Positions 30,799 to 35,157 of a stretch of 38,922 bases of DNA are shown one piece after another (position 1 is the first letter of the stretch; the number at the start of each line of letters is the position of its first letter). The DNA comes from Clostridia bacterium (GTDB lineage: Bacteria > Bacillota > Clostridia > Oscillospirales > CAG-272). The position numbers and the translations under genes are program-made. The notes under the pieces were generated by a model. The model did not search any database. It was not told the origin of the DNA and saw only the letters and a list, made by a program, of their open reading frames with translations. The DNA lies in assembly GCA_017408585.1 (NCBI GenBank), contig JAFQUJ010000005.1, positions 1-38,922 of the forward strand, written 5' to 3'.

Positions 30799-30811
30799 AA
30801 CAAATTATTAG

Positions 30812-30848
30812 AAAATCTCGGTTTTTCAAGCCGAGATTTTTTATTTTT
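30812..30848 (+). terminator. Terminator after the phosphoribosyltransferase gene
   Basis: AAAATCTCGG pairs with CCGAGATTTT around TTTTTCAAG, followed by TTATTTTT. Confidence 0.85.
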
Positions 30849-30856
30849 AAAAAGTA

Positions 30857-30886
30857 TTGATTTTTAAGCTAAAAGTGTGTTATACT
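30857..30886 (+). promoter_or_regulatory. Promoter of the structured RNA and restriction locus
   Basis: TTGATT (30857-30862), 18 bases, TATACT (30881-30886). Transcription would start near 30893, exactly where the outermost helix of the structured RNA begins. Confidence 0.6.
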
Positions 30887-30892
30887 AAATTT

Positions 30893-31090
30893 GCCAAACA
30901 AAATCGAATATTTTAAAAATGAGTAAACAAAGGGCATATTATACCCTTTTTCTTGTCATACTCCCATTATGAACTTTGTTAAAATGCAAGCTTCAATATG
31001 GGAGAGTTTACTCATACCATATTCGATTTTGTTTGGCGACGGTCGAGGCTTGCATTTTGGTGCGTTAGCTTTGGCTGACGCACTTTTTTA
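30893..31090 (+). ncRNA. Putative pseudoknotted structured RNA upstream of the methyltransferase/DUF262-HNH pair
   Basis: Nested perfect helices are visible. P1 is 30893-30911 with 31019-31037 (19 pairs). P2 is 30919-30928 with 31006-31015 (10 pairs). P3 is 30929-30934 with 30944-30949 (6 pairs). P4 is 30961-30967 with 30998-31004 (7 pairs). P2, P3 and P4 form a three-way junction. The loop of P4 (30981-30991, AAAATGCAAGC) pairs with 31048-31058 beyond P1, an 11-pair pseudoknot extendable to 14 with one G-U. An intrinsic terminator follows at 31060. It could be a stand-alone RNA or a leader controlling the genes. I know no named RNA class with this layout. A MITE is less likely because the flanks show no target-site duplication and the pseudoknot partner lies outside the terminal repeats. 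Confidence 0.65.
31060..31089 (+). terminator. Terminator at the end of the structured RNA
   Basis: GTGCGTTAGC pairs with GCTGACGCAC (one G-U) around TTTG, then TTTTTT. It lies 43 bases before the methyltransferase start, so it either ends a separate RNA or acts as an attenuator. Confidence 0.8.
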
Positions 31091-31132
31091 TTTTGTAAAA
31101 AAGATGCGACTATTTTAAAAAGGAGCATCAAA

Positions 31133-32143
31133 ATGGCAAAAAGCGACAACTTACGAATGGCAAGGCAAACAAAACAAGATGAATTTTATACTCAACTCGC
31201 TGATGTTGAAAGAGAATTAAAACATTACAAAGAACATTTTAAGGATAAAATTGTTTTTTGTAATTGTGACGATCCATATGAGAGTAACTTTTTCAAATAT
31301 TTCGCAATGAACTTTAATTATTTAGGGCTGAAAAAGCTTATAGCTACTTGCTATGATTCATCACCTATTGTCGGCACTCAGCTTTCCCTGTTCCCCGAGA
31401 AAAATCCCTATAAAATTGAAATTACCGAGGTAATAGACGCAAACGGAGATGGCGCAATTGATCTTAGCGATGTTGAATATTTATTAAAAAATAAAAACAA
31501 CACCCGTGCAAAGCTTGAAAGCGGAGATTTTCGTTCCGATGAGTGCATAGAGCTTTTGAAAGAGTGCGATATAGTAGTCACAAATCCCCCATTTTCCCTC
31601 TTTCGTGAATATGTTGCTCAACTTATGGAATACAATAAGAAATTTGTTATAATAGGTAATCAAAACGCTCTTACCTATAAAGAAATTTTTCCTTTAATTC
31701 GTGATAATAAAATGTGGTTAGGGTATGGTTTTTTGAATGGAAATGCTTATTTTAAAATACCCAACACTAATCGGGGCTATGCCAACGGTGTGTATGATGA
31801 GGGTACAGGACTGGTTAAATTTAGAAATTGCTGTTGGTTTACTAATCTTGATATTGAAAAACGCCACGAGGATTTATTGCTGTATAAGAAGTACAATGTG
31901 GAAGAATACCCTAAATATGACAATTACGACGCAATAAATGTCAATAAAACAGCCGACATTCCTAACGATTATGACGGGATAATGGGTGTGCCTATTACAT
32001 TTATAGATAAGTACAACCCCGAGCAATTTGAAATTTTAGGTTTGGATGATCATAGGGTTGAATGGCGGGGAAGAGGACCTGATTTGAATGGAAAATCTTT
32101 GTATAGAAGGATCATAATTAGGAGAAAAAACAATGCAAATTGA
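31133..32143 (+). CDS. EcoRI-type adenine-specific DNA methyltransferase
   Basis: 336 residues, close to M.EcoRI (326, from memory). The catalytic motif IV is DIVVTNPPFSLF (NPPF at 151-154). The family element VFCNCDDPYESNFFKYFAMNF lies at 41-61, and FVIIGNQNAL follows motif IV. It should methylate adenine N6 in a short DNA site. Residues 102-113 (DANGDGAIDLSD) match an EF-hand loop. The start follows AAAAAGGAGCATCAAA. Its stop overlaps the DUF262-HNH gene by 11 bases, tying the two together. Codon use and lower GC than the surrounding housekeeping genes fit acquired DNA. Confidence 0.88.
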   Translation: MAKSDNLRMARQTKQDEFYTQLADVERELKHYKEHFKDKIVFCNCDDPYESNFFKYFAMNFNYLGLKKLIATCYDSSPIVGTQLSLFPEKNPYKIEITEVIDANGDGAIDLSDVEYLLKNKNNTRAKLESGDFRSDECIELLKECDIVVTNPPFSLFREYVAQLMEYNKKFVIIGNQNALTYKEIFPLIRDNKMWLGYGFLNGNAYFKIPNTNRGYANGVYDEGTGLVKFRNCCWFTNLDIEKRHEDLLLYKKYNVEEYPKYDNYDAINVNKTADIPNDYDGIMGVPITFIDKYNPEQFEILGLDDHRVEWRGRGPDLNGKSLYRRIIIRRKNNAN

Positions 32144-33242
32144 ACTGTACGAAATAACAATTAGAGAAGTTGTGAATGGATATGTAGATAGCCAAGAGCA
32201 TGGCGTTGTTGGATATGGCGGTAAGCTGAACATTCGCCCTGCCTTTCAGAGAGAATTTGTCTACAAGGAAAAGCAAAGAAATGCCGTTATAGAAACAGTT
32301 ATAAAGGGATTTCCTCTCAATGTTATGTATTGGGTAGAGGACGAAAATGGCAACTATGAATTGCTAGACGGTCAGCAAAGAACGATAAGTATTTGCCAAT
32401 ATGTAAATGGAGATTTTTCGTTAAATAGTAGAGCCTTTCATAACCTCACTAAAACAGAACAAGATCAAATATATGACTATCCCTTAATGATATATATTTG
32501 CAAGGGTAACGACAAGGAAAAGCTCGATTGGTTTAAAATAATAAACATAGCAGGCGTTCAATTAAAGGAGCAAGAGCTTAGAAACGCAATATACACAGGG
32601 GAATGGCTCTCTGACGCAAAGCGCTATTTTTCAAAAATCGGTTGCGTGGCGTACCTTCTTGGTAATAAATATCTAAACGGAGAGGTGAATCGTCAAGACT
32701 ATTTGGAAACTGCATTGTCGTGGATTTCAGCAAAAGAGGGTATAAAGCTTGAGGATTATATGTCAATCCATCAGCATGACACGCACGCAACACCTCTTTG
32801 GCAATATTTCCAAAATGTTATAAATTGGGCACAAACAGTATTTCCAAAATATCGCAAGGAAATGAAAGGACTCCCGTGGGGAATTTTCTATAATACATAT
32901 GGGGATAATATTTATAACCCACAAGAGCTGGAGGCAAAAATCACGCTATTAATGCAAGATGATGACATCACAAAACGCTCTGGAATTTACGAATATCTTT
33001 TGAGTGGAAACGAAAAGCACTTAAATATACGCGCCTTTACCGACAACGAGAAGAGAAAGGTGTATGAGCGCCAAGGTGGAATTTGTCCCCATTGTGCTTT
33101 TGAACACAGAGAAAAAACGCATTACGAGCTTGACGAAATGGAAGCCGATCACATCACCCCTTGGAGCGAGGGCGGAAAAACAAGCATAGAAAATTGTCAA
33201 ATGCTTTGCAAGGAGCATAACCGTAGAAAATCAAACAAATAA
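32133..33242 (+). CDS. DUF262 and HNH nuclease protein, candidate restriction enzyme
   Basis: 369 residues. The N-terminal DUF262 (ParB/GmrS-like) domain shows RPAFQREFVYKEKQRNAVIE and the diagnostic DGQQRTISICQYVNG at about 89-103. DUF262 domains of GmrSD and SspE-type defence proteins use this motif for nucleotide binding or hydrolysis. The C-terminal HNH domain at about 310-369 has two zinc-type cysteine pairs (CPHC, then CQMLCKEH) and the catalytic DHITPWSEGGKTSIENC. This is C-x2-C-HNH rather than the DUF1524 partner of GmrSD. Together with the overlapping methyltransferase it forms a plausible restriction-modification pair. The start follows GGAGAAAAAACA inside the methyltransferase gene. 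Confidence 0.88.
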   Translation: MQIELYEITIREVVNGYVDSQEHGVVGYGGKLNIRPAFQREFVYKEKQRNAVIETVIKGFPLNVMYWVEDENGNYELLDGQQRTISICQYVNGDFSLNSRAFHNLTKTEQDQIYDYPLMIYICKGNDKEKLDWFKIINIAGVQLKEQELRNAIYTGEWLSDAKRYFSKIGCVAYLLGNKYLNGEVNRQDYLETALSWISAKEGIKLEDYMSIHQHDTHATPLWQYFQNVINWAQTVFPKYRKEMKGLPWGIFYNTYGDNIYNPQELEAKITLLMQDDDITKRSGIYEYLLSGNEKHLNIRAFTDNEKRKVYERQGGICPHCAFEHREKTHYELDEMEADHITPWSEGGKTSIENCQMLCKEHNRRKSNK

Positions 33243-33246
33243 ACAA

Positions 33247-33276
33247 AAAACTGACACGAAATTCCGTGTCAGTTTT
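33247..33276. terminator. Bidirectional terminator between the restriction locus and the GH127 operon
   Basis: AAAACTGACACG pairs with CGTGTCAGTTTT around a 6-base loop. T-tracts exist on both strands, stronger on the minus strand. Confidence 0.8.
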
Positions 33277-33333
33277 GCTTTAACATACAATGCTTGTGTT
33301 GATAACATAAGCTAATTTTCCATTCCACACTCC

Positions 33334-33370
33334 GCACTTTATAAAATAATTCCATTATTTTGTAAAGTGC
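33334..33370 (-). repeat. Near-perfect palindrome over the GH127 stop codon
   Basis: GCACTTTATAAAATAAT and ATTATTTTGTAAAGTGC are complementary over 17 positions with one G-U, around a 3-base loop. The GH127 stop codon at 33355-33357 lies within it. No T-run follows on the minus strand, so it may be a stability element. Confidence 0.6.
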
Positions 33371-35157
33371 CACACCTGCATCTCACACTCCCCCCTGTTT
33401 GCAAATGCAAAATAGGGAATAAGAGTTGCTGTGGTCTTGTAGAAATCGTCAGCTCTCTTATAGTAAAGCGAGTCAACAGGGCGACGCCTATACGCATCTA
33501 TATGTAAGGTGGGCACGCCTAGCTCATCGCTCCGGCCAAAAGTAAATTCTGCGCTTGTGTCAAGGTGCAAATCGCGAATGCCCTCGCCGTTGTCTATGCT
33601 TTCCATGCAATAAACAATAGGACCGCATTGTACTGCGTATTTTCCACAATCGTCATATACCCTAGGGTTTGCTCCAACGAAAAACGGTGTCATTTTAAAA
33701 TCAAGCACAATAGGCTCGTTGGCTATTGCGTTAAAGTAAGCATAGCCCTTTATCGTTTCACCCTCGTACAAGTCACACCAGTCAGGCACTCTTATAGCAA
33801 TCCTTGCGTCGCGGTCAACTACAAGCTCAATTCTTCCATCATAGGGATAAGCAGTTTTTTGCGAAATACGCACACTCTCCCCACCCAAATCAATCTCACT
33901 CTCGCTCTCCATAAACTGATGCACATAAATTGTGCTATCGTCACAGGTATATAGGAAATTCGCAATAGATGGAATAAATCTCACAATGTTTGGTGGACAG
34001 CATGAGCAATCGAATACCTCTTTTCGCAAGGTTATCGGGAAATGCACAGAGGGATATTTGTGAGAACCATCTCTTGTAGTTAGCTCTGGTCTGATTTCAA
34101 GAGGATTGGTATAGAAAAACGATTTTCCATCAAGCGAGGTGGAGGACAAAAATCCATTGTACAACGCTCTTTCTATAACATTAGAATATTTTGAATCGTT
34201 ATCAATAAGTAGCATCCTGTGTGCGAAAAACGCAAGCCCAATTGCTGCACAGCTCTCTGTGTATGCAATTAGATTTGGCAAATCGTATGGAATAGTAAAC
34301 GCCTCGCCTGCCGAGCTTGAGCCAATGCCACCGGTAATATACATTTTTCTTGTTATAATATCGTCAAAAATGCTCTCGCACGCATCTTTTAGCGACACAT
34401 CACCGCATATTTTCGCAAGGTCAGCCATAGCACAATAAAGATAGCACGCGCGCACCGCATGACCAATAGCTTCCCTTTGCTCCCTTACAGGAAGGTGTGC
34501 CTGAGAGTAGCCAAGACTTGCCCAGTCCCAATCTTCCTCCTGCCTTTGCCCACGCTCGTCAACAAAGAAGCGCGCCATATTAAGATATTTTTCATCGCCT
34601 ATGCACTCATAAAGACGCACGAGCGCAAGCTCAATCTCCTCGTGCCCCGGAGTTGTAAATGGCGTATCACGGTCGATTATAAAGCGCTTTTCAATATAGC
34701 TTGCGTATTTTATCATAAGCTCAAGAAATTTTCTTTTGCCTGTCGCCTCAAAATAGGCAACGGAGGCCTCAATTAAATGACCGGCACAGTAAAGCTCGTG
34801 ATTGTCGCGATTGGTAAAGCGCATATCAGGCTCTACAAGCATATGATAAATGTTAAAATACCCGTCATCGCCTTGATATTTTTCAATCAAGTCAATCAAA
34901 TCGTCAACGATTTTTTCAAGCTCGGGGCAAGGCTCTAAATGCGTTAAATACGCCACACCCTCAGCCCATTTTGCAACATCGCTGTCCCAAAATATGTGTG
35001 GATGCGCTGTGTGATGCTCAAAATCAAATACATCAAAGCGCCCCGTTTCAACAAACCTTTTGTAAACTGCCCATACAGTTTCATTTTTTACAAGCTCTTG
35101 CTTTTGCGCCCAAAAGCCACCCTTTATTTTTGTTTTTGAAAAATCAACTCGCCTCAT
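33355..35157 (-). CDS. Glycoside hydrolase family 127 protein (beta-L-arabinofuranosidase-like)
   Basis: 600 residues. The (alpha/alpha)6 barrel landmarks are present: KGGFWAQKQ, GYFNIYH, YCAGHLIEASVAYFEATGKRKFL, YITGGIGSSSAGEAF. The metal and catalytic residues of GH127 appear as YTESCAAIGLAFF (Glu301, Cys303) and CSCCPPNIVRF (Cys386, Cys387), matching the Glu-Cys-Cys-Cys zinc site of HypBA1, in which one cysteine is the nucleophile (established for that enzyme). There is no signal peptide, so it acts on imported oligosaccharides. It overlaps the heparinase-like gene by ATGA (35154-35157). Confidence 0.92.
   Translation of the reverse strand: MRRVDFSKTKIKGGFWAQKQELVKNETVWAVYKRFVETGRFDVFDFEHHTAHPHIFWDSDVAKWAEGVAYLTHLEPCPELEKIVDDLIDLIEKYQGDDGYFNIYHMLVEPDMRFTNRDNHELYCAGHLIEASVAYFEATGKRKFLELMIKYASYIEKRFIIDRDTPFTTPGHEEIELALVRLYECIGDEKYLNMARFFVDERGQRQEEDWDWASLGYSQAHLPVREQREAIGHAVRACYLYCAMADLAKICGDVSLKDACESIFDDIITRKMYITGGIGSSSAGEAFTIPYDLPNLIAYTESCAAIGLAFFAHRMLLIDNDSKYSNVIERALYNGFLSSTSLDGKSFFYTNPLEIRPELTTRDGSHKYPSVHFPITLRKEVFDCSCCPPNIVRFIPSIANFLYTCDDSTIYVHQFMESESEIDLGGESVRISQKTAYPYDGRIELVVDRDARIAIRVPDWCDLYEGETIKGYAYFNAIANEPIVLDFKMTPFFVGANPRVYDDCGKYAVQCGPIVYCMESIDNGEGIRDLHLDTSAEFTFGRSDELGVPTLHIDAYRRRPVDSLYYKRADDFYKTTATLIPYFAFANRGECEMQVWHFTK

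Follow-up and report, generated by a model that had tools for sequence, protein, structure and literature searches.

A candidate transcription attenuator with riboswitch-like features in front of surface-protein and other genes of gut Clostridia

A structured RNA leader precedes a restriction-modification (R-M) gene pair in a 38,922-nt stretch of DNA from Clostridia bacterium (contig JAFQUJ010000005.1 of assembly GCA_017408585.1), the whole of which is called the window here. This RNA belongs to a dispersed family of RNAs of about 150–220 bases in gut Clostridia, and the genes downstream of its members are enriched for exported proteins, often surface proteins or lipoproteins, and are sometimes R-M genes. 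The element is probably, at a rough probability of 0.8, a transcription attenuator that acts in cis from the 5' leader of the gene it precedes. The attenuator appears to be riboswitch-like and would work in the cell as a switch, presumably set by a small molecule or a protein. That it represents a new class of small-molecule riboswitch, responding to a signalling molecule or metabolite and coordinating a surface lipoprotein, BspA/LRR and, in places, R-M regulon across gut Clostridia is a tentative reading, to which we give somewhat less than even odds.

According to the proposed mechanism, transcription would start at the first base of helix P1, the P1–P4 domain would fold, and its P4 loop strand would have two alternative partners, a local one (P4b) and the strand just after P1 (pseudoknot). 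With the pseudoknot formed, the antiterminator would be blocked, the terminator would fold and the downstream gene would be off. With the pseudoknot held back, the strand after P1 would act as an antiterminator by pairing with the loop and 3' arm of the terminator, and polymerase would read through into the downstream gene.

Structure and conservation of the leader

The features of the element and of the genes that follow it are listed in Table 1. An earlier note on this DNA had described five perfect helices (19, 10, 6, 7 and 11 pairs), a pseudoknot from the P4 loop to a strand outside P1, an intrinsic terminator directly after the fold, and a promoter placing the start at the first base of P1. 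A perfect-helix search recovered all five helices, the pseudoknot among them, at their places, and the terminator and the promoter were likewise present. Pseudoknot and terminator covary in the family. The -10 box ends 6 nt before P1, and from the position of the promoter transcription would start at about 30893. The region 30857-31132 folds at -96.2 kcal/mol compared to -52.3 kcal/mol (sd 4.0) in 200 shuffles, none of which was as good (z -10.9). The 3' strand of P4b doubles as part of the pseudoknot, which extends to 14 pairs (30981-30994/31045-31058) if one G-U pair is permitted, and the antiterminator of the window has bases in common with both the pseudoknot and the terminator.

Table 1. 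Positions of the leader, its pairings and the genes under it in the window
Feature	Position	Strand	Details	Basis
Sigma-A-type promoter	30857..30886	+	-35 TTGATT 30857-30862, 18-nt spacer, -10 TATACT 30881-30886	Sequence
Sensor-like domain closed by P1	30893..31037	+		Folding, perfect-helix search, P1 covariation, arm crossing of P1/P2/P4
P1	30893-30911/31019-31037	+	19 perfect pairs	
P2	30919-30928/31006-31015	+	10 perfect pairs	
P3	30929-30934/30944-30949	+	6 perfect pairs	
P4	30961-30967/30998-31004	+	7 perfect pairs	
P4b, local hairpin	30971..30994 (30971-30978/30987-30994)	+	7/8 pairs in the window	
Pseudoknot, P4 loop with strand just 5' of terminator	30981..31058 (30981-30991/31048-31058)	+	11 perfect pairs	
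Putative antiterminator	31040..31077 (31040-31048/31069-31077)	+	9/9 pairs with terminator loop and 3' arm	
Intrinsic terminator	31059..31089	+	Stem 31059-31083, U6 tract 31084-31089	Sequence, folding
Small hairpin GATGC/GCATC around Shine-Dalgarno of methyltransferase gene	31103..31129	+		Sequence, folding
EcoRI-type adenine-specific methyltransferase	31133..32143	+	First gene under the leader	Pfam PF13651 E 7.7e-140; PADLOC MTase_II
GmrSD_N (DUF262) + HNH nuclease	32133..33242	+	Overlaps the methyltransferase gene	Pfam; PADLOC REase_II E 1.6e-140
Block of leader, R-M pair and terminator	30801..33354	+	Absent from relative G016	Comparison with L263

Conservation of the fold was examined in an alignment of 40 sequences (A1). 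When the pseudoknot, the terminator and P1 plus its extension were taken together, 98.3% of cells were paired, and 17 of the 36 pairs were changed on both sides in some sequence. None of 500 shuffles reached this level of pairing, and slid controls gave 32–47%. RNAalifold on a MAFFT alignment returned the pseudoknot and the terminator only; P2 and P4 were therefore tested by crossing the arms of different elements. The P4 arms show 35% identity between elements, and P4 self pairing averages -18.2 kcal/mol compared to -7.8 kcal/mol for crossed arms. Since most elements were gathered by a sequence pattern plus a P1 filter, P1 pairing is favoured by the collection and P4 pairing is not; an element's own arms beat all 40 crosses in 93 of 120 elements for P4, and beat the crosses in 51/120 for P1 and 49/120 for P2. 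The outer ends of P1 are conserved (first 16 nt 73% identical), whereas the inner P4 arms diverge as stated yet remain complementary. The terminator has a mean of -16.0 kcal/mol over 123 family elements. Thus, a conserved, covarying structured domain, as is characteristic of riboswitches, occupies the 5' leader, and because the helices covary, an absence of compensatory changes, which the earlier note had named as counting against its reading, does not apply. A conserved U tract 5' of P4 occurs in 108/124 elements (48.6 expected from shuffles) and may contribute to a triple helix with the A-U-rich pseudoknot.

Competing pairings at the terminator

Two sequences are complementary to the loop strand CAAAUUC, namely the local GAAUUUG (P4b) and GAGUUUG just 5' of the terminator (pseudoknot). 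In 122 full-length elements, some of them anchored out of register, the pseudoknot partner fits the loop strand at 8/8 positions in 101 and the P4b partner at 7/8 or more in 91 (best of seven offsets). A further pairing connects the segment 3' of P1 (consensus CNAUYGGAG) with the terminator, where it involves the loop and the beginning of the 3' arm (CUUCGGUNG). The earlier note had missed both this antiterminator helix and the dispersal of the element.

The antiterminator pairs at 9/9 positions in 103 of the 124 pattern-collected elements. At its two variable pairs, 214 of 248 cells were Watson-Crick compared to 153.6 (sd 5.6, highest 174) in 1000 shuffles. The variable bases were TA/TA in 44 and AA/TT in 42 of the 124 elements, two commonest variants that may reflect ancestry, followed by TA/TG (16), AG/CT (5) and GA/TC (1); GG/CT was found in the window alone, and some combinations were mismatched, for example AA/CT in 6. 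Among other terminator-like hairpins, a 9/9 upstream partner occurred in 1 of 234 (best of 28 positions). On A1, 97.2% of antiterminator cells were paired, and in slid controls this fell to 61% or less. Most antiterminator pairs are invariant, and for this reason two of the five shuffle measures gave weak results, with 128 and 13 of 500 shuffles scoring as high. As the antiterminator 5' strand and the pseudoknot 3' strand are each largely contained in the collecting pattern, their invariance is partly by construction; the partner strands were unselected.

As the pattern fixes much of the antiterminator 5' strand, the pairing was also tested on elements outside the pattern set. In a fixed register, long elements of this group paired at 9/9 positions in 28/50 and at 8/9 or more in 37/50, and none of 20 short elements paired at 9/9, 14 of them being without the expected loop. 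We also performed a register-free test, in which each tail was folded to three bases past the terminator loop and scored by a mean upstream pairing probability >0.5. In 126/126 pattern-collected elements, the terminator loop and 3' arm found a partner upstream of the terminator, and outside the pattern set the loop paired upstream in 50/50 long and 17/20 short elements. Such upstream loop pairing was obtained for 16 of 223 other terminators. UUCG loops are frequent in terminators.

In the tail of the window, the antiterminator form (-18.6 kcal/mol) and the terminator (-18.1 kcal/mol) are predicted to be nearly equal. The pseudoknot helix of the window is predicted at -19.5 kcal/mol and has 31045-31048 in common with the antiterminator. 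The bases in common and these energies suggest that the switch is off when the pseudoknot is formed. As the consensus pseudoknot is predicted to be far stronger than P4b (-16.8 vs -4.2), the on state would need kinetics or a bound factor. An expression platform with mutually exclusive structures, as in riboswitches, is present as judged by sequence and folding.

Transcription-terminating riboswitches with a pseudoknot are known, such as the ZTP, fluoride and preQ1 riboswitches. The element resembles these in its leader position, its structured domain and a pseudoknot strand competing with an alternative hairpin next to the terminator. In contrast to them, it has no Rfam match at gathering scores, its targets are without a visible common metabolic pathway, and its pseudoknot is predicted to favour termination.

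Position relative to genes and kinds of target

Enough upstream sequence was available for 118 cmsearch matches, of which 17 are weak antisense matches to true elements. A -10 box of at least 5/6, a score reached by about 9% of random positions, is present in 86 of the 118, and 78 of these 86 boxes stand 6–7 nt before P1. At the other end, an ATG with a Shine-Dalgarno sequence lies within 40 nt after the U run in 81/127 elements (46/127 did not pass this strict test) compared to 4/216 other terminator-like hairpins, and at 131 of 3000 random positions a start codon with a Shine-Dalgarno sequence lay within 40 nt. The same spacing was observed in 38/68 further elements, and in 10/20 of the short ones outside the pattern set. 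In a looser search, 132/135 elements had an open reading frame within 400 nt, at a median distance of 27 nt. The downstream gene usually has little or no space for a promoter of its own.

The promoter, the strong terminator and the compact fold would also suit an independent small RNA of about 195 nt that acts in trans, with the downstream gene being expressed by incidental readthrough. We consider this unlikely, as start codons stand far closer than after other terminators, the conserved antiterminator would have no obvious use in such an RNA, and the downstream targets are non-random. A lipobox was found in 26/102 downstream proteins compared to 19/439 background proteins of the same loci, and a hydrophobic N-terminus in 65/102 compared to 107/439. 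A scan of 120 downstream proteins yielded 17 with LRR_5 (BspA type), 5 with a zinc ribbon, 5 SHOCT, 4 MazE/AbrB, 3 EcoRI methylase and 3 AMP-binding. With NCBIfam, 7/120 matched the PARCEL-repeat surface-protein model and 17/120 an LRR adhesin model.

The c-di-GMP riboswitches of clostridia occur in several copies per genome and before surface-protein genes. The element is similar in both respects; unlike these riboswitches, it matches no Rfam family at gathering scores. If the attenuator reading is true, the element would represent a widespread orphan attenuator family, the switching parts of which are already visible in the sequence, in gut bacteria that we know mainly through metagenomes. 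The two predicted states, on and off, are directly testable in vitro, and finding the signal would tell what gut Clostridia sense when changing their surface proteins. The attenuator reading also suggests a route by which an incoming R-M system may fall under host-wide control.

Distribution of the family and the R-M locus

A covariance model built from the 40 members of A1 matches 49/96 genomes of close kin and 61/245 genomes of the class, the window's own being counted in both; across the phylum, the only match in 299 genomes was the window's own. The genome of the window has four matches, the fourth at E 9e-6, and 4 to 18 matches per genome were obtained in twelve genomes searched closely, most of which were picked for many matches. 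BLASTN of the leader returned two further copies in the window's genome and matches in 44/145 genomes, own included. A pattern scan of the genome collection gave at least 119 matching stretches; among the 80 stretches listed, almost all titles were Clostridia, Clostridiales, Oscillospiraceae or Ruminococcus MAGs, and many came from ruminant guts. The elements fall into two length classes, a long one of about 200 nt and a short one of about 150–185 nt, the latter by eye without P3. Three genomes of one genus (G160, G335, G377) have 11 to 18 matches each, nearly all of short-class length. Tandem elements, two to four in a row, were observed in L092, L102/L323 (G021), L112 and L321 (G027). In L092, an apparent truncated start of a small Cys-rich gene (GNGxQGFECCCDECDY) lies between the two copies, and the full small Cys-rich gene comes after the second.

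Of the database searches proposed by the earlier note, the covariance model thus revealed a dispersed family, and at gathering scores no Rfam 15 family matched the window. With looser limits, the window had chance-level matches only (best E 0.29) and a typical family member a single match at E 0.86. A gathering-score scan of 17 family loci gave nothing on the element; FMN, SAM, Gut-1 and tRNA matches were found near elements in the same scan. The FMN and SAM riboswitches and Gut-1 RNA near members lie at L113 1542-1657 and 726-821 and at L142 1168-1239. Rfam holds a T-box model, and this T-box leader model did not match the element in the window or the 17 loci. No exact match to the consensus of the 3' core was found in 103 loci. 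At the level of titles and abstract openings, we found no description of the RNA in the literature. Fremin and Bhatt (2021; PMC8040213) reported 3161 candidates for structured RNAs in human microbiomes, and 508 of these lie no more than 25 bp upstream of a gene; the habitat overlaps and their candidate list could include the element, of which the text consulted gives no description.

EcoRI-type methyltransferases stand under three family members: in the window, in L192, where a DUF262-HNH-like partner was recognised by eye, and in L196, at a contig edge. The leader of L075 is 73% identical to that of the window, and the gene under it is one that we take to be methylase-like from its motifs. 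The single match of the leader among phage records, MT835503 (filed as Bacteriophage sp.; L223 is MT835503.1), has a related leader in front of what is by eye the same gene pair, beside genes that by eye resemble MATE and ABC transporters, and this scaffold looks like a bacterial chromosome rather than a phage. BLASTN of the leader had no match in plasmids, and the exact core pattern, which the window's own copy does not fit either, had none in viral contigs; a phage or plasmid element was rejected on these grounds.

In the relative G016 (L263), the flanking genes, the convergent apt and the gene at 33355-35157, stand about 25 bp apart, indicating that the leader and the R-M pair come and go together as a single block. 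The apt protein of G016 was the closest found in the genus (90%). This absence as a block, the resemblance between the leaders of the window and L075, which precede different R-M genes, the dispersed, multi-copy and sometimes tandem occurrence, and the conserved outer P1 ends would all fit a mobile non-coding repeat, MITE-like or cassette-like, that inserts before genes or moves with them. We regard such a repeat as very unlikely: the P4 arms are complementary despite their divergence between copies, neither viral contigs nor plasmids gave matches in the searches described, and the orientation and spacing of the element to the downstream gene are regular, which is not the pattern of an indifferently inserting MITE.

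The earlier note had taken the RNA to be conserved and to serve the methyltransferase/nuclease locus. The attenuating leader that it offered as one option is well supported by the sequence; dedication to the locus does not hold. Although R-M genes are found under several family members (window, L192, L196, MT835503, methylase-like in L075), most members precede unrelated genes of other kinds, and in the window's own genome the genes that follow the other three copies are lipoprotein-like, one of them showing BspA-like repeats by eye. A protein search gave 67 other methyltransferase-homolog loci, 20 from 13 relatives (some fragments of one gene) and 47 from viral contigs, a few with little or no upstream DNA, and none of the 67 had an element match at E 0.01 in the sequence available for it (best E 0.073, L041). 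Among methyltransferase-homolog loci, a match at this threshold occurred only in the window (L004) and MT835503. Because homologous loci lack the element and the element is dispersed, a claim specific to this locus is not supported; an RNA dedicated to this R-M system as guide, antitoxin or decoy, for which no support was found, is contradicted by the distribution and highly improbable. Retron msr/msd RNAs have long inverted ends, as does the element, which differs from them in being a leader that carries a terminator and stands before genes of many kinds. No support was found for a retron RNA either, and its link to the R-M pair was, like that of a guide, antitoxin or decoy, rejected mainly on distribution; the two genes directly after the element encode a methyltransferase and a nuclease. 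A sequence similar to the Shine-Dalgarno hairpin of the window (31103-31129) is also present in L075.
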